From Pseudomonadota bacterium (GTDB lineage Bacteria > Pseudomonadota > Gammaproteobacteria > Steroidobacterales > Steroidobacteraceae): DNA of 64,000 bases. Below are positions 1 to 14,630 of the stretch, piece after piece. The notes beneath the pieces are model-generated. The model saw only the letters and a program-made list of their open reading frames with translations, ran no database searches and had not been told where the DNA came from. The position numbers and the translations under genes are program-made. The stretch lies in the NCBI GenBank assembly GCA_018241505.1, contig JAFEDS010000016.1:186001-250000 (forward strand), given 5' to 3'. Each line of letters starts with the position of its first letter. The stretch's first letter is position 1.

Positions 1-1304
1 GCGCCGTGCGCGACGTAGGCCTTGCCATCGCGGATATACGTTACATCGACAGCATTGCCCTTCTGAGCAACTTTTACGACGGTGCTGTTGAGCCGCACGC
101 GGATGGGACCGCGCGGCGAATCGAGCTCTTCGTACTTGACCCGGGTGGTAACCAGATCCTCCACCGTCTTGCCGGGCAACGCGCCCGGGAGCAAATTTCG
201 CAGCAAGGAGCGCGCAACTGTCGCATTGCCGTCCGGAAAGTGGAGCGTCTTCGAGCCACCCGTGTCGGCGAAGCCGGCCGGTGTGTAGCCCATGCGTGGA
301 ATCGAGCCCGGCTCGAGCTTCAGTCCGGAAAATCCGGGCATGTCGGATCCCCAACAATCGAGCGCCGATACAGCGTCGATGCCCGCTCCCCACAACCCGT
401 GCGTGTGCGTCTGATAGAAGGCGAGTGTCAGCGGCTGTACTTTCACCAGATCCCGCAAATAGTCGCGGTAGCTGATGGATGACAGGCGCAGCTTCTTCTG
501 AGCCGAGCTCATTCCGGGCATGTAGTCGATATTGCCCTCTTCCACCCGCTCAATGTCACGTTGTACCTGTTCCGGCAAGCCGCTCTTGGCAAGCGCGTGG
601 GCCACCGGTGAGGATTTCCAACCCACCATCAAGTGCTCGGTACCGAATGTTTCCCGGTCGAGAAACACGGCGCCGTGCAGGCCCAGCGAACCATAGAAGC
701 GATGGTTCTCAATCTTACTGAGGCGATCGACATCGATTCCGCAATCGACCAGCACCTGCGCCGCTACCGGGCTGTACGGGCGGGGACTTTCGATTGAGAG
801 GGTTCCGCCGTTCAGCAGGTTGAGCCGCCCATTCAACATGAACTCGTTGCGCTTGGCGTGGCCGCCAAAATCGTCGTGATTGTCGAGGATCAGGATGCGG
901 CTGCTGCGCGAGGCGCGGTCGCGATAGAAATGGGCCGCCGCAAGACCACTGATACCGCCACCGACAATCACCAGGTCGTAACTTTGTTGGGTATCAATCG
1001 CATCAGTGGTTACGTGCCCATCACGGACCGCGTGCGCGTTCTCAAACGAGCCGGGATGACTGCCGCGCATACCGGTGAGAGCGGGTGGATAGTAGCCAGC
1101 GCGATCTTGCGCACCCAGAATCTCGAGCGGGCTGGCTGCCAGCGAAGCCAGTGGCAACTCCGTTGCGACGCCCGCCGCCGCGATCAACGCGCCCTGCAGA
1201 AAATCCCGGCGGGGGATGCTGCGGTCCGCGCCCAGGTCACGGCTGCCGTTGGCGCCAGCCACGCTCGCATCGTCGCCGCTCGAGCCCGTGTGCTTTTTTC
1301 CCAT
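1..1304 (-). CDS. Spermidine dehydrogenase-like FAD oxidoreductase, partial (copy 1)
   Basis: The reading frame is open from an ATG at 1304 to the window edge, so about 434 N-terminal residues are seen and the C-terminus is missing. A twin-arginine signal (RRDF at residues 32-35) is followed by a YPPALTGMRGSHPGSFE-type segment, then a Rossmann FAD site (VIVGGGISG) and the family motif NHDDFGGHAKRNEF. All of these are shared with the copies at 3012-4898 and 11196-13184. The family oxidises polyamines or related amines; substrate here is unknown. It is last in the visible TonB receptor, FAD enzyme, amidohydrolase operon and begins 7 bp after the amidohydrolase stop. Export by Tat to the periplasm is inferred. 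No CxxCH haem site is visible in the part seen. Confidence 0.8.
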   Translation of the reverse strand, partial: MGKKHTGSSGDDASVAGANGSRDLGADRSIPRRDFLQGALIAAAGVATELPLASLAASPLEILGAQDRAGYYPPALTGMRGSHPGSFENAHAVRDGHVTTDAIDTQQSYDLVIVGGGISGLAAAHFYRDRASRSSRILILDNHDDFGGHAKRNEFMLNGRLNLLNGGTLSIESPRPYSPVAAQVLVDCGIDVDRLSKIENHRFYGSLGLHGAVFLDRETFGTEHLMVGWKSSPVAHALAKSGLPEQVQRDIERVEEGNIDYMPGMSSAQKKLRLSSISYRDYLRDLVKVQPLTLAFYQTHTHGLWGAGIDAVSALDCWGSDMPGFSGLKLEPGSIPRMGYTPAGFADTGGSKTLHFPDGNATVARSLLRNLLPGALPGKTVEDLVTTRVKYEELDSPRGPIRVRLNSTVVKVAQKGNAVDVTYIRDGKAYVAHG

Positions 1305-1311
1305 TCTCCGT

Positions 1312-3009
1312 CTATGCCTCGTAAACTGTCTTGCCACCTGTCACGGTGCGCAAAATCTTGATGTCCTTGATGGTCTGCGCGGGCACGGTCACAGGATCGC
1401 CCCCGAGAACCACATAGTCTGCCCACTTGCCCGGCGTAATGCTGCCCTTGATCGACTCTTCGCGGGACGCATAGGCGCCATTCAACGTGTTGATCTGAAG
1501 CGCTTCCGCCACGCTCACACGCTGATTGACACCCCACTTTTCACCATTCCAGCCAGTGCGGGTCGCCATTCCCTGCATCCCCATCAACGGCGCAAATGGG
1601 CCGGGAGAGAAGTCCGAACCCGCGGCGGCAGTGATGCCGGCATCAATGAACGACCGATACGCCATGCAGCGCTTCATCAGCTCTGCGCCGTAGAAGTGGA
1701 ATTTATCGGTGTTGTAATAGGCATAGGTTGTAAACGGTGTGGGAACCGCCCCCACCGCCTTGATCCGCCGCAGCAGATCGTCCGTGATCAATGTGCAATG
1801 GGTGATCTTCGGCCGCGCATCCGGAACCGGGTAGGCCTGCTGCGCGCGCTCGAGAGCTGTCAATACCGAGTCGATGGCCACATCGCCATTGGCGTGGCAA
1901 TTCACTTGGATTCCCGCGCGGTGCACTCTCAGTATCCAGGCATCGAGCACGTCCTGCGTTTCCGTGACATTGCCCTTGTAGCCGGACTCGTTGCCTGGGT
2001 ACGGCACGCTGATGGCCATGGTGCGTTCGGAAAACGAGCCATCGACCGTGTGCTCCGAAGTGGCGCCGAACTTCAGCCATTCATCGCCAAAGCCGGTCTT
2101 GACCCCGTTTTCAATCATTGCATCCAGGATGCTGCCACTGACTTCGTAACTGACTCGATGCAACAGATCGCCGCGAGTCCGTACGTCCTGAATGGCGCTC
2201 AGGTCACCGCCCTGGTGATGCACACTCGTGAGGCCATACCGGACAAACTGCTTGGAAATGTATGCGATGCCATCGCGGTTACGTTTGCGCTTTTGCTCTT
2301 CAGTGAACTGCGGCCGCTTGCCCACCTTGTCGAAAATATCCCTGGCGCGATCGGTCACCCTGCCGTTCAGCGCCCCGTGGACATCCCGGTCGAAGGTGCC
2401 ACCGGCTGGATTTTGCACGTTCGGTGCAATCCCCGCGAGCTCAAATGCCTTGCTGTTGTAGTAGGTCGTGTGTCCACCCCGATGGCGCACAGCCACGGGA
2501 TGTTCGGTGGAAACCTTGTCGAGATCGTGAATGTTGACCTCGCGCTTGTCCTTTACCTTCGTATCGTCATAGAAAAAGCCTTCAATCCAATACCCGGGCG
2601 GGGTTTGGCGGGCTTTGGCGGCCAGCTTGCCCACAATGGAATCGATCGTAACGAACTCAACTTCGAACGGGTTACCGACCAGCACCTCGTACAGCAGCAC
2701 GTTCCCGACGGCGTGGTTGTGGCAGTCAATGAAACCGGGCACAACAGTCGCTCGTTGCGCGTCCTGCGTCTGTGTGCTGCGCCCGGCCAGCGCCTTGATT
2801 TCATCATTGCTGCCCACGGCAATGAAGCGCCCTCCCCGCACTGCAAAGGCCTCCGCGTGCGGCTGACGGGGATCTACAGTCAACACGTTGGCATTCACGA
2901 CAATCAGATCCGGGCCTCGGGCGTTTGCTTCCTCTGCCGCGCGCAGGCGCCCCAGCATCGCGAGGCTCACCCCCGTCATGCCCAACATTGACCTGCGGCT
3001 GATTTTCAT
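1312..3009 (-). CDS. YtcJ-like metal-dependent amidohydrolase, exported
   Basis: About 565 residues. It opens with a Tat-like signal (ISRRSMLGMTG) and continues with the amidohydrolase pattern: an N-terminal strand block (IVVNANVLTVDP), the first metal motif FIDCHNHAVG, a later histidine in VNCHANGDVAID, and a C-terminal PGKWADYVVLGGDP segment. This is the COG1574/YtcJ type, which hydrolyses amide-like bonds in small molecules. I chose the ATG at 3009, two bases after the stop of the upstream FAD enzyme, over the TTG at 3039. Sharing an operon with two amine-oxidising FAD enzymes suggests it frees an amine from an N-acyl or similar derivative; that is inference. A second relative lies at 14698-16431. 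Confidence 0.85.
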   Translation of the reverse strand: MKISRRSMLGMTGVSLAMLGRLRAAEEANARGPDLIVVNANVLTVDPRQPHAEAFAVRGGRFIAVGSNDEIKALAGRSTQTQDAQRATVVPGFIDCHNHAVGNVLLYEVLVGNPFEVEFVTIDSIVGKLAAKARQTPPGYWIEGFFYDDTKVKDKREVNIHDLDKVSTEHPVAVRHRGGHTTYYNSKAFELAGIAPNVQNPAGGTFDRDVHGALNGRVTDRARDIFDKVGKRPQFTEEQKRKRNRDGIAYISKQFVRYGLTSVHHQGGDLSAIQDVRTRGDLLHRVSYEVSGSILDAMIENGVKTGFGDEWLKFGATSEHTVDGSFSERTMAISVPYPGNESGYKGNVTETQDVLDAWILRVHRAGIQVNCHANGDVAIDSVLTALERAQQAYPVPDARPKITHCTLITDDLLRRIKAVGAVPTPFTTYAYYNTDKFHFYGAELMKRCMAYRSFIDAGITAAAGSDFSPGPFAPLMGMQGMATRTGWNGEKWGVNQRVSVAEALQINTLNGAYASREESIKGSITPGKWADYVVLGGDPVTVPAQTIKDIKILRTVTGGKTVYEA

Positions 3010-3011
3010 TT

Positions 3012-4898
3012 TTAAACCATCCCCCTCGATGCCAGGCAATCCTGTACTGCCCGCTGCGCCTGGTCGATTGCCGTGTTGGTAAACGCCGCCGCCGACGCAT
3101 CGGCATTGGCGATCGCAATCCGCCCGAAAGCGCGCCTGCCTAAAACGTGTGGCCGCTCAGCCTCGGGCATGTCCGGATCGCCGAGCGTATCGTACGTGTA
3201 GGCATAGCCATGGGGCCAGCGATTCACGGTGATGGCAAGGATGTCCCGATTCGCATCGAAGCCACCGGGGCGCAACATCCGATCCATCTGGGCACGAATT
3301 TCTTTCTCGATCTTCTCGAACGGTGTCGCAAGCATGTCGAGGCGTCCCTGGCGATGCTGTTCCTTGCGGGGCAAACCCGGCTTGTTCGGGTTGCGGATCA
3401 TGTGAACCACAATGGGTTCCCGCGGATCGTTGGGAAACTGGTATCGCCCCAGTGACACTGGGATATCGAGCATGGTACTCGTGTGATAGCCATTCGGCGC
3501 ATGAATGCTTTCCACACCGAGCTTACGCCATGGCTCCCAATTTCTCACCAGAACGTTGGTGTACTGCATCGGCACCTTGGATGCATACGCCAAGGCCTGC
3601 TTCTGCTCTTGCGGCAAGCTCGGCACAATGAAGCGGATGATGTTGTTGAAGCACGCCATGATGACATTGTCGGCCATGACCTGCTGGGCTCGACCATCGC
3701 GCATGTAGATGACACGTACGCCATCCGGCTTTGCGGCGGTGCCCACGTGCTCGACACGAATGGCCGTGCTTCGCAACCGGATTCGGGTCGGCTGAGCAGG
3801 CCGATCCAGTGCAGGATACTCGGCGTGCGCCGTGACGATGGATTCCATCGTCTGTTTACCCTGGAAAACCTCCGGAACCAGGCGGCTCACCAACAGGCGC
3901 GCGATGGTTGCGTTGCCATCCGGGAAATGGAATTCGTAGTCGGAGTGGAAGAAGGGATCCGGCGGCAACCCGAGCCCCGCGAAGCCGGCGGCACCCGATC
4001 GAGCGGCCGTGTACGCAGGACACGTGTCCACACGCATGTTGTTTCGGAAGCCCTCGCCCGCGAAATACGGGAGGCTCGCCGGAAGCAGTTTCGCGTGCTT
4101 CAACAGATAGTCCTGGTAACTCATCCGCTTCAGTCGTTCGATCTTGTCGGCGCTCGATAGTCCCGCCAGATAATCAACCGATTCAGTGTGGATCCGGATG
4201 AGGTCGGCGCGCACAGCCGCGGTCAACGGTGCGGCACTGAAGAATTCAGACCAGGGGCGCTTGCTGACACCCGCCACCAGGCGATCGGACCCGAAGTGCT
4301 CACGATCGAAGAAAACACCCCGCTGCAATCCGGCATACAGCTCCCGGTCCTCGTGTTGCGAGTAGCTGGCGACATCGATGCCGAGGTCGGCTATGAGCGC
4401 CTTGGCCGTGTAGCTGTAGGGAAAGGGCGTTTCAATGCTCATGGTTCCGCCATAAGCCAGGTACATCCGGCCGTTGTGGTGGAACTCGTTACGCTTGGCG
4501 TGCCCTCCGAAATCGTCGTGATTGTCGAGAATGAGTATCTTCTGTCCGGCACCCAGCGCCTGGCGAAAAAAGTAGGCCGCCGACAGCCCGGAGATGCCGC
4601 CGCCAACAACGACCAGATCGTAGCGCTCGCCCGTGTCCGCGGCGCTCACGGAACCGGAGAATTGACCGTCCCGGGCGGCGTGCGCGACCTCGAACGACCC
4701 CGGATACTGCCCCCGCAAGCCGGTTGCGGCCGGTGGATAGGGGCTCGCATCGGGCGGGGGTGTATCCAGTTCGCTCCTGCCGGTGTCCCCGGGTACCGCG
4801 TCGGCGGCCTGAAGCCGCGATGCCAGCGCAACAGCCGCCAAGCCGCCGCCAATGAAATCGCGCCGGTCGATACCAGCGCCGGACTCCGGGACAGTCAT
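3012..4898 (-). CDS. Spermidine dehydrogenase-like FAD oxidoreductase (copy 2)
   Basis: 628 residues, the only copy with an obvious ATG start (4898). It has a Tat signal (DRRDFIGGG), the segment YPPAATGLRGQYPGSFE, the FAD-binding loop VVVGGGISGLSAAYFF, NHDDFGGHAKRNEF and, near the C-terminus, NRWPHGYAYTYD and RIAIANADA, which probably complete the FAD fold. Relatives include bacterial spermidine dehydrogenases, which cut polyamines at the secondary nitrogen. The gene begins 9 bp after the TonB receptor stop and ends 2 bp before the amidohydrolase start, so the three are almost surely one transcript. No CxxCH haem motif is present. Function as a periplasmic amine dehydrogenase is from family; substrate is unknown. 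Confidence 0.85.
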   Translation of the reverse strand: MTVPESGAGIDRRDFIGGGLAAVALASRLQAADAVPGDTGRSELDTPPPDASPYPPAATGLRGQYPGSFEVAHAARDGQFSGSVSAADTGERYDLVVVGGGISGLSAAYFFRQALGAGQKILILDNHDDFGGHAKRNEFHHNGRMYLAYGGTMSIETPFPYSYTAKALIADLGIDVASYSQHEDRELYAGLQRGVFFDREHFGSDRLVAGVSKRPWSEFFSAAPLTAAVRADLIRIHTESVDYLAGLSSADKIERLKRMSYQDYLLKHAKLLPASLPYFAGEGFRNNMRVDTCPAYTAARSGAAGFAGLGLPPDPFFHSDYEFHFPDGNATIARLLVSRLVPEVFQGKQTMESIVTAHAEYPALDRPAQPTRIRLRSTAIRVEHVGTAAKPDGVRVIYMRDGRAQQVMADNVIMACFNNIIRFIVPSLPQEQKQALAYASKVPMQYTNVLVRNWEPWRKLGVESIHAPNGYHTSTMLDIPVSLGRYQFPNDPREPIVVHMIRNPNKPGLPRKEQHRQGRLDMLATPFEKIEKEIRAQMDRMLRPGGFDANRDILAITVNRWPHGYAYTYDTLGDPDMPEAERPHVLGRRAFGRIAIANADASAAAFTNTAIDQAQRAVQDCLASRGMV

Positions 4899-7681: not shown

Positions 7682-9106
7682 GTGTCTGTGTCAGAGTCCT
7701 CGATCAGCCCTGCCCGACCGGTGACCTCCAGCGATCCTGGACCGCAGACGCGTGTGGCCACCATCGCCACGGGACTGCGGCGTCGTGTGATGTCTGGCGA
7801 GTTGAGCCAGGGCGATCACATGCCGTCCGTGCGCCAGCTCGCGCGTCAGAATGGCGTCAGCGCCTTTACAGCCTCGCGTGTGTACGACCTTCTGGTCGCC
7901 GAAGGCCTCGTGGATGCGAGGCGCGGCTCAGGATATTTTGTCTCTGAAAGCATCCAGGTACTCAAGCAGCGCGGGCCCGCCGGGCCCGAGGCCCTGGCGG
8001 ACTCGATCTGGCCACTGCGCCGCGACTACGACTCCCGGCTCGTTCGCCTGGATGCCGGGTGTGGCTGGCTTCCCGCGGGCTGGCTGTTTGGAGATGGGGT
8101 GCGAACGGCGCTCAAGAAGGTAGCGCGCCGGCCCTCGGCCTATGTCGGCCGGTATGGCAGTCCGTATGGCTTACGGTCTTTGCGCAGGCACCTGGTCACG
8201 CGGCTCGCGCAACGTGAAATCGAGTGCGCGGAAGATCAGATCGTGCTCACCCAGGGCGCCAGCCAGGCGCTCGAGTTATGTATCAGCACACTGACCAACG
8301 CCGGCGATCAGGTGTTGGTGGATGATCCCTGCTATCCGTACGTGCTGGCCATGCTGCGCGGTCGCGGTGTCCGGCCGATCGGCGTGCCGCGCACAGTGAA
8401 CGGGCCGGATGTGCGAGCCCTGCAGGCGCTCGTGTCGAAGTCGAATGCACGTGTATTCATCACCAACACGACGTTCCACAATCCAACGGGAACCACCACC
8501 TCACAGCAGGTCGCCCACGAAATCCTGATGGCGGCCCGGGCCCACGATCTGACCATTGTCGAAGATGATATTTTCGCAGAGCTCGCCGTCGACCGTCCCT
8601 CGAGCCTGGCCTCGCTCGACCGGCTGCGGCGCGTGATCTACATCGGCAGCTTTTCAAAGACCATTGCACCGAACCTGCGAGTGGGCTACATCGCTGCCGC
8701 CGCGGACATGGCCGAGCGCATCGCGGGCCTCAAGAATATCCTGGCCCTGTCCTCCTCGGAGCTGACCGAGCAGCTCGTGCTGTCCATCCTCACCGGCGGC
8801 CGCCACCGCACCCATCTCGAAAGCCTGCGCAAGCGCTTGGCCAACAACTATCTGCAGATCAGCCGACGCTTCGCGAGCGCCGGCGCGACAGTGGAATTCA
8901 GGGGTGGGGGCCTCTTCCTCTGGGCACGCCTGCCCACGCACTCGAGCGCACCCGAGGTTGTGCAGCTTGCCAAGGCACGCGGCATTTTGTTGGCGCCCGG
9001 ACAGATGTTTCGGCCGGACGCCCAGTCGTGTGAGCATTTTCGCTTCAACGTGGCCTACGCCAACGACGAGCTGCTGTACGATTTCATCCGCAGCCTGCCG
9101 TCCTGA
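7682..9106 (+). CDS. MocR/GabR-type regulator: GntR DNA-binding plus aminotransferase-like domain
   Basis: 474 residues. Residues about 25-95 form a GntR winged helix (MPSVRQLARQNGVSAFTASR, then LVDARRGSGYFV). The rest is a fold-type I aminotransferase domain with the PLP lysine motif IGSFSKTIAPNLRVGY, DDPCYPY and NTTFHNPTG. Such proteins sense PLP together with an amino compound, such as GABA or taurine, and switch nearby catabolic genes. The start is GTG at 7682 (another GTG lies at 7688) after a strong purine-rich site. It is divergent from the TonB/FAD oxidase operon, and shared motifs suggest it also acts at 13185-13307. Its 3' end overlaps the convergent cytochrome gene by 23 bp. Confidence 0.9.
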   Translation: MSVSESSISPARPVTSSDPGPQTRVATIATGLRRRVMSGELSQGDHMPSVRQLARQNGVSAFTASRVYDLLVAEGLVDARRGSGYFVSESIQVLKQRGPAGPEALADSIWPLRRDYDSRLVRLDAGCGWLPAGWLFGDGVRTALKKVARRPSAYVGRYGSPYGLRSLRRHLVTRLAQREIECAEDQIVLTQGASQALELCISTLTNAGDQVLVDDPCYPYVLAMLRGRGVRPIGVPRTVNGPDVRALQALVSKSNARVFITNTTFHNPTGTTTSQQVAHEILMAARAHDLTIVEDDIFAELAVDRPSSLASLDRLRRVIYIGSFSKTIAPNLRVGYIAAAADMAERIAGLKNILALSSSELTEQLVLSILTGGRHRTHLESLRKRLANNYLQISRRFASAGATVEFRGGGLFLWARLPTHSSAPEVVQLAKARGILLAPGQMFRPDAQSCEHFRFNVAYANDELLYDFIRSLPS

Positions 9107-9509
9107 CCTCGGTCAGAATACGCTGCCGGTAAACATCGAGCCGGTTGGTAAGCGGCTGCCGCCGCAAAGCCGAAACTTCAGTTGCGTCGTAGCGCGGAGC
9201 CCCAGCCGGAACGCTCGCTCCCCCGAGACCGAACACGACGAAGTTCAATAAGTCCGCCAGCAGCTCATCCGACACGGGAGCCCGCGCGATGTTGGGCAGG
9301 CGAACCAGGTAGCGGCGCCCATCGTCCGTGCACAAGAAACGTCCCGCTTCGTTTTTCAACGTCGGGATGGTCTTCGGAGCGGATACGCCCTGAATGCCAT
9401 GACAACCGCCACAATATTTCAGATATGCGATGTGAACGGGCGGCAGCGGTTCCTGGCCCGCGGCACGAGCGATCGCGGCGCTTGCGAGCATTGCCGCGAC
9501 CCAGCGCAC
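9084..9509 (-). CDS. Monohaem cytochrome c, probable electron acceptor of the TTQ enzyme
   Basis: 141 residues from a GTG at 9509 that overlaps the light-chain stop by one base (TAGTG). A short signal peptide (WVAAMLASAAIARAAG) is followed by one haem c site, CGGCH. No methionine follows the haem motif anywhere in the protein, so the usual Met distal ligand of class I cytochromes is absent; a histidine or another residue must serve, or the site is open. Position directly after the amine dehydrogenase subunits argues that it takes electrons from TTQ, as cytochromes and azurin or amicyanin do in known systems. An ATG at 9491 would give a shorter signal peptide. Confidence 0.75.
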   Translation of the reverse strand: MRWVAAMLASAAIARAAGQEPLPPVHIAYLKYCGGCHGIQGVSAPKTIPTLKNEAGRFLCTDDGRRYLVRLPNIARAPVSDELLADLLNFVVFGLGGASVPAGAPRYDATEVSALRRQPLTNRLDVYRQRILTEVRTAGCG

Positions 9510-10063
9510 TATTCCTGCAACCCGATGAGAACCGCCATGGAGCAGTGATATTCCATGCTGCTCGTCCCGAAACACCAGATGATGTTGTTGTTGCCTGTCG
9601 GGCGGTACACCGGCGTCTCGCCTTCGGTGTTGTTGCAATAGCAATCGCCGCAAGCCCCGACTCCGCAGCAGTCGCGGTACGCAATCAGGTAGGTCCGTTG
9701 ATCGCCGGGATTGAGACAACTGCCGATCCACATTGTTGGCGATGCTTCGGTTCCCGGCGGGCATGTATGAACGCCACCGCCGCAGCAACTGCACAGAAAT
9801 CCATCGGTCCCACAGTAGCGCCAATAGTTGCAGGCCTTGGGGTCGTCAGCTTGTGCCTGGGCGCCAAAGTCACTGCGCGGCGTGGGAGCGGTCGGTGGCT
9901 CCGCCGGGCCATTTGCTGCCGCACGCGAAACCGGCAACAGCGGGAAAAGCGGCGCCGCCACCAACAAAGTCCCCAGCTTCGCCAATAGCCCGCGCCTGGA
10001 GCTGCGGGCCGCCACACGTCGCAAGGCCCGCTCACCGAACCGGTCGAAGTCATTCAGTTTCAC
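9509..10063 (-). CDS. TTQ amine dehydrogenase light chain (MADH/AADH family)
   Basis: 184 residues. A Tat-like leader (SSRRGLLAKLGTLL) precedes a cysteine-rich mature part with 14 cysteines. The two tryptophans that form tryptophan tryptophylquinone are Trp112 (TMWIGSC) and Trp163 (IIWCFG), 51 residues apart, as in Paracoccus methylamine dehydrogenase (57 and 108). The catalytic Asp is conserved at 131 (YRDCCG), as is the Asp needed for crosslinking at 87 (GTDGF); both offsets match the known enzyme. CSCCGG and 14 cysteines resemble aromatic amine dehydrogenase, while NTEGETPVYRP resembles methylamine dehydrogenase, so the substrate class is undecided. The start is a GTG directly after the heavy-chain stop, with AAGGA seven bases upstream. 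Confidence 0.93.
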   Translation of the reverse strand: MKLNDFDRFGERALRRVAARSSRRGLLAKLGTLLVAAPLFPLLPVSRAAANGPAEPPTAPTPRSDFGAQAQADDPKACNYWRYCGTDGFLCSCCGGGVHTCPPGTEASPTMWIGSCLNPGDQRTYLIAYRDCCGVGACGDCYCNNTEGETPVYRPTGNNNIIWCFGTSSMEYHCSMAVLIGLQE

Positions 10064-11203
10064 TCAAAAATCCTTCCCGGACAGCAGCTCGCCGCGAATG
10101 CCCTGGCGGGCGTGCAACACGTCGCCGGTTTGGGCATCCAACGCCCACAGCCATTCCTCCGCGACTGCAAACAACACCGGATGAGCATCCTGCGTCACGG
10201 CAATGGAGTTGGCGGATTGAGGCAGCGCGTAGCGGCCTGCCACCTTGTGATTCACCGTATCCAGGACCCAGACCTCGGTACCAGGCTGCGCATGGCTCCA
10301 GTGCACACCCTCGTGCATGAGCACGAATAAGCGCCCGCTCGCGCGATGATAGGCAGCGAGGCGCGCTCCGCCGGGCCGCCAAGTCACCTGCCCCGGTTTC
10401 GTGGTCGCCGCGGAGAGCCCGGCCGCCTGTTGGATCGACCAGGGAGCTCCGATTCTGGGTTTCTCGGCGAGATCCACCGTGTACAGGTTGCCTGTATACG
10501 TCAGAAGCAACGCCTTGTTGCTGCGGCGGTCGAATACGCTCTCGTCGAATACGGGATCTTTACCCGCGTCAAAGAATACCGGCGACCGCACAACCGACCC
10601 GGTTCCAACTACGGTTGCCATCGTTCCATCGGCGCACAGGGACGCGAACCCCCGGGGTCCCCATGCATACACGAGGCCGCAGCCCGCGATGGATACCGTG
10701 CCAGCAATCTTGCGCTTTTGCAGGTCGACCACAATCACGGAGGACGCCGGGTCGAAGTTGTAGACGTAACCGAAATGTCCATCAGAGCTGATAGCCAGCC
10801 CGGCGGACTTGGGATCGGAATACAGGCGGCCTGGCAAGTTGATTTCCGCCGTCCGGTTCAGCGTATCGCCCGCATATACCGTCAACAGATCGCGCCGTTG
10901 CCCGCGATTCCCCAACGACCAGTAGCTTTCGGCAACATAGAAATTCTGGCCCTGAGGATCGACGGCGACGTGTGAATGGGGCGCCGTGTAGAGCTGCGCC
11001 ACATGCTGCAGAGTATCGCCGTCGAAAATCTTCGCCCCTTCGCCACCACCACTGATGATCAGGTCGTGATCCTTCAGCGGACGCAGCTTCGCGATGTCGG
11101 CGACTTCGGCCTCCAGCACGGGCCTCTCCGCCGCCACCAGCGCGGGACTCGCAGTCAGGAAGACCCCGAAAAGCAGCAGGCTACGCGCAATCAATTCAGC
11201 CAC
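10064..11203 (-). CDS. TTQ amine dehydrogenase heavy chain
   Basis: 379 residues with a signal peptide (LLLFGVFLTASPALVAAE) and a seven-bladed propeller pattern: HVAVDPQGQNFYVAESYWS, GLAISSDGHFGYVYNF and a C-terminal WALDAQTGDVLHA. This matches the MauB/AauB heavy chain, which supports the TTQ light chain in an alpha2beta2 periplasmic enzyme converting primary amines to aldehydes and ammonia. The segment MHEGVHWSHAQPGTEVWV corresponds to the conserved HxGxxxxHxxPGxEVW of heavy chains. The start is GTG at 11203, overlapping the FAD enzyme gene by 8 bp. In known clusters two genes (mauE, mauD or aauE, aauD) separate heavy and light chain; here they are contiguous. Confidence 0.9.
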   Translation of the reverse strand: MAELIARSLLLFGVFLTASPALVAAERPVLEAEVADIAKLRPLKDHDLIISGGGEGAKIFDGDTLQHVAQLYTAPHSHVAVDPQGQNFYVAESYWSLGNRGQRRDLLTVYAGDTLNRTAEINLPGRLYSDPKSAGLAISSDGHFGYVYNFDPASSVIVVDLQKRKIAGTVSIAGCGLVYAWGPRGFASLCADGTMATVVGTGSVVRSPVFFDAGKDPVFDESVFDRRSNKALLLTYTGNLYTVDLAEKPRIGAPWSIQQAAGLSAATTKPGQVTWRPGGARLAAYHRASGRLFVLMHEGVHWSHAQPGTEVWVLDTVNHKVAGRYALPQSANSIAVTQDAHPVLFAVAEEWLWALDAQTGDVLHARQGIRGELLSGKDF

Positions 11204-13184
11204 CCTTCACGAGGAAGGGATACGTGCGCCGCTCCAGGACTTCCTCGACCGCCCGATGCGCCTCGAGGAATGCAGCATCGGTGTGCGGGCTGGCAGCCGC
11301 ATCGGCGTTGGCTATGGAAATCAGGCCATGCGGCTGCCGGGCTTTGACACACGGCCGATCGTTCGTTTCCGAGAATACCCACTCGAGGGGGTCGTACAGG
11401 CTGTTGTACGTGTATGAATAGCCGTGCGGCCAGCGATTGACCGCAATACCGATGATGTCACGCGCCGGATCGAAGCCGCCCTTGCCCAACACCCGGGCAA
11501 GCTGATCGCGGATGTTGCGCTCAAAGGTTTCGAAGCTCGTGCTCAACAGCTCCGCGCGGCCGATCCTATGCTGGTCCTTGCGGGGCAGCCCCGGCTTTCC
11601 AGGGGTGCGGACCATGCGCACAGCGACGGGTTCATCCGGTGATTTCGAGTGTCCCAACTCGCCGAGGTCGCACGGCTCCGCGAGGTTGACCGAGTCGTGA
11701 TAGCTCGTCGGACACTCGACGTACTCCACACCCAGCTTCTGAAACGCCTGCCAATTCTTCAGGAACACGTTCGTGTAGACAATGGGCGCCTTCACATTGA
11801 AGGCGAGAGCTTCCTTCTGCGCCGCGGGCAAATCGGGCACCACATACGGGATCATCATGTTCCAGCATGCCATCACGCACGCGCGGCCACGCACCTCGTA
11901 GAGCTTGCCGCCATTGCTGTAGTTGACGATGACTTCCTTTGCCGACCCCCGCTCGCCGTCATGACGGACGTTGAGCGCCGTGGAGTTGAGCCGAATCCGA
12001 GTCTGGTTGCTGGCGCGATCCAAGGCCGAATAGTCGACGCGCGCCGCGCCGATGTCTTCCTGTGTACGCCCCGGAATGGCGCCCGGAATCAACTTGCGAA
12101 CCAACAGCCGCGCGAGCGTGGCATTGCCGTCAGGGAAGTGCACGGAAGTGCCCCCATCTTTCTGGCGGCCGTGCTGCCCGCCGGGCAGGTCGGCCAACAG
12201 TCCATTCGCGCTCTTGTCGAGCTTCAACCCTGCAAACCCCGCGCCTGCACCGCCGCTCATCTGCCATGCGAACAATGCGGGAAGCGCATCAGCGCCCACA
12301 CAGAAGACGCCGGCACCCATCCGGGAGAAGAACCAATACGCTTGGCTATCGACCTTGGCTACATTCAGCAGATAGTCGCGATAGCTCATGCGAGCCAGGC
12401 GCTCCTTCTTCTGCGCATCCGACAAACCGGGCAGGTAGTCGGGTTGCTGCGGATCAAACAAGCGCAGCATATCGGCCCTGGCGCGCGGCGAGATCGGCAT
12501 GTCGCGCAGATACTCGTCGCTGAAGCCTTGTCGGTGCCGCGCGGCCGCATCGGCTGGAGCGACTACGAGCCGGTCGCGTCCGAAAGTCTGCTTGTCGAAA
12601 AAATACCCGCCGCGCATCCCGAGCGATGAATACAACCGCTCGTTCTGTTCATTGGATTTGAGATAGCGGTCCAGGTCGACATCCAGGTCCGACAGAATCT
12701 GCAAGGCCCATTTGTTGTAACGCTCGGGGCTCTCGATCTCTAGCGTGCCGCCATTCAGGACCAGTGTCCTGCCCTGATAGTGCAGCTCATTTCGCTTGGC
12801 GTGGCCGCCAAAATCGTCGTGGTTCTCCAGGATCAGCACCCGCGCGTCCCGGCCCACATCCCGCAGGAAAAAATGCGCCGCGGCAAGGCCGCTCAAGCCG
12901 CCCCCCACGACCACGAGATCGTAGGTCTCACCCGTGCGCTGGGCGCCCGAAGTGTCTATGGCGCGGCTGTCACGGAGAGCATGCGCTGCCTCGAACGCTC
13001 CCGGGTGCGAGCCACGCATTCCCATCCGGCTGGGTGGATAGTCTTCCTTCAGCGCGCTGGCCGAGTCTTGCGCCATCGCGAGGCCAGGCAGACTCAGAGC
13101 CCCCGCCGTTGCCGTGACTCCATTGATGAAGTCGCGACGCGAGATGGATCGATCCATGCCGAGACTGCGGTCGTTACTGTTCAA
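11196..13184 (-). CDS. Spermidine dehydrogenase-like FAD oxidoreductase (copy 3)
   Basis: About 662 residues from a TTG at 13184, which has GGGGGA six bases upstream; an ATG at 13157 (MDRSISRRDF) is the alternative. It has a Tat signal, YPPSRMGMRGSHPGAFE, the FAD loop VVVGGGLSGLAAAHFF, NHDDFGGHAKRNEL and a C-terminal NRWPHGYSYTYNS and SIANADAAA. It is first in the operon with the TTQ heavy and light chains and the cytochrome, an arrangement I do not know from described amine dehydrogenase clusters. It could act on a different amine and share the same cytochrome, or act in sequence with the TTQ enzyme; both are inference. Confidence 0.85.
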   Translation of the reverse strand: MNSNDRSLGMDRSISRRDFINGVTATAGALSLPGLAMAQDSASALKEDYPPSRMGMRGSHPGAFEAAHALRDSRAIDTSGAQRTGETYDLVVVGGGLSGLAAAHFFLRDVGRDARVLILENHDDFGGHAKRNELHYQGRTLVLNGGTLEIESPERYNKWALQILSDLDVDLDRYLKSNEQNERLYSSLGMRGGYFFDKQTFGRDRLVVAPADAAARHRQGFSDEYLRDMPISPRARADMLRLFDPQQPDYLPGLSDAQKKERLARMSYRDYLLNVAKVDSQAYWFFSRMGAGVFCVGADALPALFAWQMSGGAGAGFAGLKLDKSANGLLADLPGGQHGRQKDGGTSVHFPDGNATLARLLVRKLIPGAIPGRTQEDIGAARVDYSALDRASNQTRIRLNSTALNVRHDGERGSAKEVIVNYSNGGKLYEVRGRACVMACWNMMIPYVVPDLPAAQKEALAFNVKAPIVYTNVFLKNWQAFQKLGVEYVECPTSYHDSVNLAEPCDLGELGHSKSPDEPVAVRMVRTPGKPGLPRKDQHRIGRAELLSTSFETFERNIRDQLARVLGKGGFDPARDIIGIAVNRWPHGYSYTYNSLYDPLEWVFSETNDRPCVKARQPHGLISIANADAAASPHTDAAFLEAHRAVEEVLERRTYPFLVKGG

Positions 13185-13245
13185 TCATGTTCCCCCGGGG
13201 ATGCGGACCTGGCGACGATAGCAGCCGGCCGCGGGTGGAAGCGCC

Positions 13246-13302
13246 CTGTAGTGAGGCACCCACCAGTACAGTGAGTCGAGGGCCTGTACGAACTGTACAG
13301 TT
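13246..13302. promoter_or_regulatory. Probable operator between FAD/TTQ operon and aminotransferase
   Basis: CTGTAGTGA lies at 13246-13254, CTGTAC at 13284-13289 and a perfect 12-bp palindrome AACTGTACAGTT at 13291-13302, ending five bases before the aminotransferase ATG. The same CTGTAGTGA and CTGTACAGT words lie in the MocR control region (7494-7520). The pairing suggests one regulator for both divergent regions. The closeness to the ATG leaves little room for a ribosome site. Confidence 0.5.
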
Positions 13303-13307
13303 CGACC

Positions 13308-14630
13308 ATGAACGCTACTACGCCGCTCGATCTTTCATCCTATTGGATGCCCTTCACCCACAACCGCTATTTCAAGCAGCGGCCGAAGCTCGTGGCCTCG
13401 GGCCGTGGGTCGTATCTGACCCTCACCGACGGCCGCAGGGTGTTCGATTGCCTGTCGGGTTTGTGGTGTACCCCGATGGGACATTGCGCGCCGCAGATCG
13501 TCCAGGCGATCCAGGAACAGGTCGCCGGACTCGACTACACACCCGGATTCCAGCTCAGTCATCCAGGCGCCTTCGAGCTGGCGACCCGTATCGCCGAGCT
13601 GGCGCCCGCGCCGCTCAATCGGGTGTTCTTTGCCAACTCCGGTTCGGAGGCGGTCGACACCGCCCTGAAGATCGCCATCGGATACCACCGGCTGCGGGGC
13701 GAGGCGAGCCGCACGCGGCTGATCGGCCGGGAGCGCGGCTATCATGGTGTTGGATTAGGCGGCACTTCCGTCGGCGGTATTTCGCCGAATCGCAAAATGT
13801 TTGCCCCCCTGATGATCTCCAATGTCGATCATCTGCCGCACACTCATAACCTGGCGCACATGCAATTCACGCGCGGCCAACCTGCGTGGGGCGCGCATCT
13901 TGCGGATGAACTGGAGCGGATTGTTGCGCTGCATGATGCATCAACTATTGCCGCGGTCATTGTTGAACCGATGCAGGGCTCGGCCGGTGTCATCGTTCCA
14001 CCGAAGGGATATTTGCAGCGCTTGCGTGAGATCTGCGATCGTCACGGCATTCTGTTGATATTCGACGAGGTGATTACCGGCTTCGGGCGGGTAGGAGCCA
14101 ACTTCGGCTCGCAACGGCTCGGTGTCACACCGGATCTCATCTGCTTCGCGAAGGCCGTCACCAACGGCGTAGTGCCATTCGGTGGCGTCATCGCCAAGCA
14201 GAGCGTTTACGATACCTTCATGACGGGGCCCGCGCATGCAATCGAGCTCTTTCATGGCTACACGTATTCAGGCCATCCGCTGGCCTGCGCCGCCGGCAAT
14301 GCGACACTCAAACTCATGCAGGAGACCGGCGCAATCAAGCGGGCAGCCATGCTCGAACCCGTCCTCGAGCATGCGATGCATTCGCTGCGTGAAGAGCCTC
14401 ACGTAAATGACATTCGCAACTTCGGTCTTGCCGCCGCTTTGGAACTCAAACCGCGCGACGGGCAACCGGGAATGCGGGCAATGGAAATGTTTGAGCGCGG
14501 ACTGGATGCCGGAATTCTGCTGCGCTTTACCGGGGATACTTTGGCCGTGGCGCCGCCGTTCATTTCCACCGAAGACGAGATCGAGCTGATGGTGGCGCGC
14601 ATCCGCGAGCTGTTGCGCGAGCTCAAATAA
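13308..14630 (+). CDS. Class III omega-amino acid:pyruvate aminotransferase
   Basis: 440 residues. The opening SSYWMPFTHNRYFKQRPKL and LSGLWCTPMGH are typical of beta-alanine/omega-amino acid:pyruvate transaminases. The PLP lysine lies in ICFAKAVTNG, with FDEVITGFGRVG before it. It moves the amino group of beta-alanine, GABA or a similar omega-amino acid to pyruvate, giving a semialdehyde and alanine. It is divergent from the FAD/TTQ operon and shares its operator region, so it probably handles the downstream amino acid or aminoaldehyde-derived product. It is cytosolic; an amino acid permease lies 2 kb downstream. Confidence 0.9.
   Translation: MNATTPLDLSSYWMPFTHNRYFKQRPKLVASGRGSYLTLTDGRRVFDCLSGLWCTPMGHCAPQIVQAIQEQVAGLDYTPGFQLSHPGAFELATRIAELAPAPLNRVFFANSGSEAVDTALKIAIGYHRLRGEASRTRLIGRERGYHGVGLGGTSVGGISPNRKMFAPLMISNVDHLPHTHNLAHMQFTRGQPAWGAHLADELERIVALHDASTIAAVIVEPMQGSAGVIVPPKGYLQRLREICDRHGILLIFDEVITGFGRVGANFGSQRLGVTPDLICFAKAVTNGVVPFGGVIAKQSVYDTFMTGPAHAIELFHGYTYSGHPLACAAGNATLKLMQETGAIKRAAMLEPVLEHAMHSLREEPHVNDIRNFGLAAALELKPRDGQPGMRAMEMFERGLDAGILLRFTGDTLAVAPPFISTEDEIELMVARIRELLRELK

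Follow-up and report, generated by a model that had tools for sequence, protein, structure and literature searches.

The window analysed here is a stretch of 64,000 nucleotides (positions 186,001 to 250,000 of contig JAFEDS010000016.1, assembly GCA_018241505.1) from a gammaproteobacterium of the Steroidobacteraceae, and it carries an operon for a two-chain amine dehydrogenase of the tryptophan tryptophylquinone (TTQ) class. The operon spans 9084–13184 on the minus strand (Table 1; all operon positions are window coordinates) and is transcribed in the order of a flavin adenine dinucleotide (FAD) protein resembling spermidine dehydrogenase (SpdH), heavy chain, light chain and a small cytochrome, here called X. 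Each gene overlaps or directly abuts the next: the heavy-chain start overlaps the SpdH stop, and X likely begins with a GTG that overlaps the light-chain stop (TAGTG). A preliminary description of this DNA had given the order FAD gene, heavy chain, light chain with adjacent chains, which is confirmed. The gene for X lies inside the same span and was left undescribed there; it is the gene most likely to matter.

The light chain carries both TTQ tryptophans and the two aspartates, as the preliminary description stated, and scores 169.6 bits with PF02975 and 210.2 bits with TIGR02659 (cut-off 196.85). Trp112, Trp163, Asp87 and Asp131 are invariant in all six light chains of the genome, and the window residues align with 3c75_L, where we take them to correspond to Trp57, Trp108, Asp32 and Asp76 of methylamine dehydrogenase (MADH). 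The adjacent heavy chain belongs to the expected family (PF06433 cut-off 21 bits; TIGR02658 just 120 bits against a cut-off of 454), so that light-chain profile, tryptophans, aspartates and heavy chain all place the enzyme in the TTQ amine dehydrogenase class. Leaders with a twin-arginine-like motif are visible by eye in the SpdH-like protein and the light chain, and the X leader looks signal-like by eye. A profile scan of window open reading frames (ORFs) of at least 60 residues found no MauE, MauD or MauG, and whole-genome searches placed no PF07291 (MauE) or PF03150 (CCP_MauG) match inside the window, in agreement with the reported lack of these genes from the 64 kb. The mau order B-E-D-A does not occur among window ORFs; E and D were found only near paralogues. 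No gene for MauF, MauJ or amicyanin was noticed in the window operon, and no genome-wide search for them was made.

Table 1. Genes of the TTQ operon and its surroundings in the window
Feature	Position	Strand	Supporting matches and features
SpdH-like FAD protein, operon gene 1	11196..13184	-	7d9i SpdH 477 bits over residues 13-649; PF13450
TTQ amine dehydrogenase heavy chain	10064..11203	-	PF06433 113 bits; nearest solved relatives AADH (aromatic amine dehydrogenase) heavy chains
TTQ amine dehydrogenase light chain	9509..10063	-	PF02975, TIGR02659; Trp112/Trp163, Asp87/Asp131, 14 Cys
X, small monohaem cytochrome c (CGGCH)	9084..9509	-	nearest solved relative T. thermophilus cytochrome c552
MocR-type regulator	7682..9106	+	homologues adjoin related locus in L035, L036, L039, L057
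AptA-type omega-aminotransferase	13308..14630	+	NF052567 672.5 bits, cut-off 500; homologues adjoin L035, L036, L039, L057 locus
Second SpdH-like FAD protein, paralogue 43% identical	3012..4898	-	

Sequence and predicted structure of X

The window copy of X has 141 residues, with two histidines, one of them in CGGCH, and a single methionine, which lies in the leader. Pfam scans of four X proteins returned Cytochrom_C above cut-off for the L007 copy and L118, nothing for the window and L034 copies, and CCP_MauG for none; NCBIfam scans of six X proteins gave nothing near a cut-off. The best solved match of the X profile is cytochrome c552 of Thermus thermophilus (E 2.4e-20), which Foldseek also finds, weakly (E 1.9e-3), with an AlphaFold model of X (predicted local distance difference test score 89.7) that carries no haem.

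The segment of cytochrome c552 at about residues 49–73, which holds the axial methionine (presumably residue 69), has no counterpart in X. In an alignment with 35 Met-type companion cytochromes, the axial-Met loop is absent from all 100 X sequences of at least 60 bits (98 loci), and the proline that follows it is kept in 99. X rows were gathered by requiring CxxCH, so this c552-type motif is present in 100/100, and the Met-type cytochromes were chosen by a Met-Pro motif, so that their methionine (35/35) is given by construction; the loop absence in X is not. Four visibly Met-type rows that escaped this motif (L121, L123, L131, L136) and the frame-broken L111 row were left out. Because no histidine or methionine besides the histidine of the haem motif is invariant in X, its haem is predicted to be five-coordinate, with an open site. 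A Met-type cytochrome often stands between light chain and X (e.g., L118, L121, L130, L132, L135, L136), with X as the constant member. An extra cysteine pair was considered as a marker of the X class and rejected, as the pattern occurs in just 57 of 117 X-type rows and in one MauG-type row. Compared with MauG, X is likewise an exported haem protein, but it is monohaem rather than dihaem and shows no CCP_MauG match in the four copies scanned, and MauG is found at a complementary set of TTQ loci.

Distribution of X and MauG at TTQ loci

Related loci were found with motifs of the window genome's own light chains, and the 80 considered are the best 80 of 573, a choice that disfavours MADH-type chains (loci, genomes and contigs are cited by L, G and C handles). 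X reaches at least 60 bits in 80/80 with a profile built from those same loci, being cut by contig ends in L035 and L038 and split between two frames in L111; Met-type cytochromes also pass at E 1e-3, and the stricter count is the one given. Because they are motif-picked and the best of a larger set, these loci alone cannot show exclusivity. In a phylum-wide sample of 398 genomes, light chains above 160 bits and X of at least 79 bits occur in the identical 11 genomes, and among 385 genomes of another class they occur in the identical 12. The two samples were searched with separate profiles, have one genome (G303) in common, and had at most 8–9 X candidates scored per genome; X-profile matches of 30–41 bits in seven other genomes of the first sample and of 33 bits in one of the second were counted as no X.

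Of 125 light chains from the fetched loci, 114 have X at most 4 kb away and in the same orientation, five have MauG or a MauG relative, none has both and six have neither (the window light chain is counted twice, also in L008, and G028, from L089, and G725 are seemingly the same assembly). In two of these six, L035 and L038, an X gene is present but truncated where the contig stops, and in L007 it lies 4.4 kb off in the same gene run, upstream of the heavy chain; the other three are the orphan pairs of L008, L010 and L140. The five MauG-type loci are four mau clusters (L114, L115, L116, L124) and L143. Plasmid records with a light chain number 31, with X in 15, MauG in 15 (13 Paracoccus, Methylobacterium DM1 and Indioceanicola) and neither in one, Thermomicrobium, which has no X or MauG near light-chain-like ORFs that are divergent, score <100 bits and hence stand outside the 125. 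On that Thermomicrobium roseum plasmid (L122, 1980–8297), four light-chain-like ORFs rich in Cys lie with genes resembling those of MauE and MauD, and the stretch contains neither a heavy chain nor X nor MauG. In Novosphingobium aromaticivorans DSM 12444, cluster L117 on plasmid pNL2 reads B-E-D-A-X, with X (SARO_RS19985) annotated as hypothetical. L143 (G725:C55, 2220–3857, minus strand) is an operon B-E-D-A followed by a dihaem MauG relative instead of X; it stands at the base of the MauG branch, and its dihaem protein has, by eye, Met where MauG has its inter-haem Trp.

MauG itself was sought with a profile built from four MauG proteins, which by construction score 486–556 bits; three are annotated as MauG, and the Indioceanicola founder, annotated as cytochrome c peroxidase, was taken as MauG from its mau context. 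The best match in the window genome (7.88 Mb in 46 contigs, 93.9% complete, 5.67% contamination) reaches 175 bits. In 55 X-type genomes the profile gives at most 301 bits, with no match at E <= 1e-5 in 21, and in 11 further ones at best 306 bits, with none in five; thus 26 of 66 X-type genome handles, including the single-contig G102, G234 and G450, are without a match at that threshold. Lack of MauG is the rule among the searched genomes of this enzyme class. The TIGR03791 cut-off was also tried as a MauG test and dropped: none of 44 genomes reached it (author-chosen, also among the 55, and behind 44 of the 80 loci), and the test is unsafe because MauG of Paracoccus denitrificans itself scores 94.6 bits against a cut-off of 443.85, a caution for annotation with this NCBIfam model.

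X also varies together with the enzyme. At the 97 loci with all five genes, distance correlations are 0.927 for X and light chain, 0.945 for X and heavy chain, and 0.929 between the two chains, against 0.789–0.832 for MauD or MauE with either chain. Linkage alone is argued against as the cause, because E and D are equally linked yet correlate less. In a light-chain tree of 72 of 127 rows with only 107 columns, drawn by midpoint and with the X label assigned by locus, the five MauG-type light chains, of which three are identical, group with L143 (100/100), and this group is nested in a set of 40 rows that includes 33 X-type chains. The deepest fork as drawn has X-type chains on either side, a pattern suggesting that X came first and MauG later. 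The AADH light chain groups with X-type light chains, and AADH is the best solved relative of two of these, L121 and L130; as AADH crystal structures contain TTQ, the cofactor likely does form in this class where no MauG is encoded nearby. Neither role of X, maturase or redox partner, is proven by the tree or the distribution.

Genome context and the SpdH-like flavoprotein

The window genome (G000) encodes six TTQ light chains, four X genes and two MauE/MauD pairs. The pairs, in which the MauD members are MauD-like, adjoin paralogous TTQ loci on C7, at about 174.6–175.8 kb, roughly 10 kb to the left of where the window begins, and on C4; with TIGR02661 the C4 MauD scores 206.9 bits (cut-off 188.6) and the C7 copy, as a fragment, 121.6. 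Two more PF07291 matches exceed the cut-off, on C11 and at C7:259646, and the MauD search covered MauE neighbourhoods and the window. E and D are thus present in the genome and could serve in trans. The preliminary description had allowed that the maturation genes lie elsewhere, and a search of the genome confirms this for E and D, whereas a MauG-grade protein was not found.

In the nearest gammaproteobacterial relatives (L034, L035, L036, L039, L045, L056, L057), the locus reads E-D-DAO-(SpdH)-heavy-light-X as far as each contig reaches, and MocR and AptA homologues adjoin it in four of the seven (Table 1). The window operon, in which X likewise follows the light chain, looks like a rearranged copy of this locus because the relatives share the gene order and the MocR and AptA neighbours. 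Heavy-light pairs without E and D in the fetched stretch recur (L097, L140, L010, L011), and the second heavy-light pairs of L092, L094 and L109 adjoin a complete set. The alternative raised in the preliminary description, that the lack of E, D and MauG reflects something peculiar to this lineage, is therefore not supported, since such pairs recur and lack of MauG is general among the searched genomes of the class. Another TTQ pair (L008:5667–7328) lies just left of the window; like the pairs of L140 and L010 it is an orphan with no E, D, X or MauG nearby, and the genome of each has a fuller set elsewhere.

Compared with AADH of Alcaligenes faecalis, also a two-chain TTQ enzyme, whose aau cluster we take to contain a small monohaem cytochrome gene and no mauG as well, the window locus has adjacent chains, E and D elsewhere and an SpdH gene in front. 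Among solved structures, those of AADH come nearest to its heavy chain; for its light chain MADH gives the better score (190.8 bits, vs 132.6 for AADH). With the P. denitrificans mau cluster it shares a light chain that has both tryptophans and both aspartates and exceeds the TIGR02659 cut-off, but no E and D lie between the window chains and the genome holds no MauG-grade protein.

The FAD protein is a homologue of the solved SpdH (7d9i) along nearly its whole length, and differs in being encoded with a TTQ enzyme. A match above 400 bits occurs in just 8 of the 80 fetched loci, many of them shorter than 20 kb, and L040 would make a ninth but its copy is truncated where the locus ends; the interval for the gene is too short in L036, L039 and L056, and only a remnant is left in L045. 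The flavoprotein most likely supplies or processes the substrate. A further SpdH-like gene at window 3–1337 on the minus strand is cut by the window edge. The window also encodes an amino-acid permease whose best NCBIfam match, below cut-off, is a GABA (gamma-aminobutyric acid) permease model. After X, L034 has a pair of 2Fe-2S and molybdopterin oxidoreductase genes (11187–13960, by eye), and the large subunit alone follows X in L045 and L057; this oxidoreductase perhaps oxidises the aldehyde product. A molybdopterin-binding protein (Pfam) is encoded at L007:7012–9135.

Candidate routes to the TTQ cofactor

The operon would make an exported TTQ amine dehydrogenase of heavy and light chains, with a primary amine as its substrate, and along with it an SpdH-like dehydrogenase that is exported too. 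Its role is probably polyamine breakdown, judging from the neighbouring SpdH, omega-aminotransferase and GABA-permease-like amino-acid permease. MauE and MauD from the paralogous TTQ loci may make the light-chain disulfides in trans. X is a c552 relative that lost its axial-Met loop, which would leave an open haem site. Peroxide or oxygen could then react at this site, and X could oxidise the light-chain precursor and complete the Trp-Trp quinone; the direct contact between X and light chain, and the maturation reaction, are what we infer from sequence. We give a probability of about one half to X, in place of MauG, being the TTQ maturation factor. It is ranked first because X sits where MauG is absent, behaves like a bound partner and, as an open-site c-haem, would be chemically able to use peroxide.

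Several observations weigh against a maturase role for X. The correlations ignore shared species history and near-copies, and linked, co-varying genes could equally be redox partners. Orphan heavy-light pairs at L008, L010 and L140 have neither X nor MauG nearby; X is at another locus of the genome and would therefore have to act in trans. In the phylum-wide comparison, G308, a genome without X, barely exceeds the PF02975 cut-off with a match of 23 residues (24.5 bits; 25.1 with neighbours); this match and a 22-bit one in G339 were set aside as not representing TTQ genes. Some MauG-family match, mostly of 100–300 bits and from dihaem proteins, is present in 40 of the 66 X-type genome handles, and a distant match of this kind lies outside the cluster in the four Burkholderia plasmid records of the X type. 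The dihaem relative of the fifth MauG-type locus, L143, reaches just 256 bits, a score that other dihaem proteins also attain. A single X query matched 11 plasmid records (Thermus, Deinococcus, Marinobacter) without a light chain, at E 4e-10 at best, and the weakest TTQ plasmid record, Haematobacter, at 7e-9; because non-TTQ records beat Haematobacter, single-query matches at this level are not diagnostic. Amicyanin, too, is present in Paracoccus and Methylobacterium, so what replaces X there could be amicyanin and not MauG.

The main rival reading, which we rank second and consider rather unlikely, is that X is instead a dedicated electron acceptor or bound redox subunit, with maturation being autocatalytic or due to an unrelated factor. 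In its favour are the relationship of X to cytochrome c552, the position of its gene next to those of the enzyme, and its co-variation with the heavy and light chains. However, the axial-Met loop is gone from every aligned X, a loss that should lower the haem potential, and a second, Met-type cytochrome often precedes X. A passage of PMC9547800 lists EC (Enzyme Commission) 1.4.9.2, the AADH class, with azurin as cosubstrate. Indioceanicola (L115) has a MauG-type protein and no X, although none of its genes is annotated as amicyanin; this point is weakened by a small protein annotated as hypothetical (11747–12070), which by eye is cupredoxin-like. Completion of TTQ in trans by a dihaem MauG relative encoded elsewhere in the window genome is improbable. 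Several CCP_MauG proteins are available, including those on C33, C1 and C46, and the C33 protein (L137:4984–6144) retains a tyrosine aligned with the presumed axial tyrosine of MauG. It is nevertheless disfavoured as a MauG, since the MbnH model TIGR04039 fits it best (310 bits, cut-off 362.85; TIGR03791 168 bits, also below cut-off) and its contig has no light chain, and the 26 X-type genome handles mentioned above have no such protein at E <= 1e-5.

The two remaining explanations are very improbable. One, suggested in the preliminary description, is that the operon flavoprotein aids TTQ formation; its role would then parallel that of QhpG, LodB and GoxB for cysteine tryptophylquinone (CTQ). 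The SpdH-like gene is co-directional with the chains, its product seems exported, and a passage of PMC7876137 describes flavoproteins as required for this sister cofactor. The suggestion is disfavoured, because the protein is an SpdH homologue along nearly its whole length and its gene is rare near such loci, missing or a remnant in otherwise similar clusters. We give equally little credence to an ordinary split cluster in which E and D work in trans and the final step proceeds without an enzyme of its own: the E/D pairs adjoining paralogues would fit it, but it leaves the mutual exclusion of X and MauG unexplained.

To our knowledge, MauG is the only route to TTQ, and we know of no answer to how the AADH class makes the cofactor without it. 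No paper on TTQ formation in that class without MauG was found among open-licence papers, and the generality of X, its loop deletion and its exclusivity with MauG were likewise not found in open-licence literature. According to parts of PMC7876137, autocatalysis is presumed for the initial hydroxylation in MADH, and flavoproteins serve CTQ; BthA is treated in a part of PMC6405878. The observation of a monohaem gene without mauG in a single organism may already be old. Chistoserdov is said to have described in 2001 an A. faecalis aau cluster that lacks mauG and includes a gene for a small monohaem cytochrome. Tentatively, and with slightly less than even confidence, we propose that most TTQ enzymes are completed by a monohaem c family, to which our Pfam and NCBIfam scans gave no name and which would have become catalytic by loss of the axial-Met loop, with MauG as a late replacement confined to the methylamine dehydrogenase branch. 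If this is true, a small monohaem protein would carry out a six-electron protein oxidation that has so far been ascribed to a dihaem enzyme.

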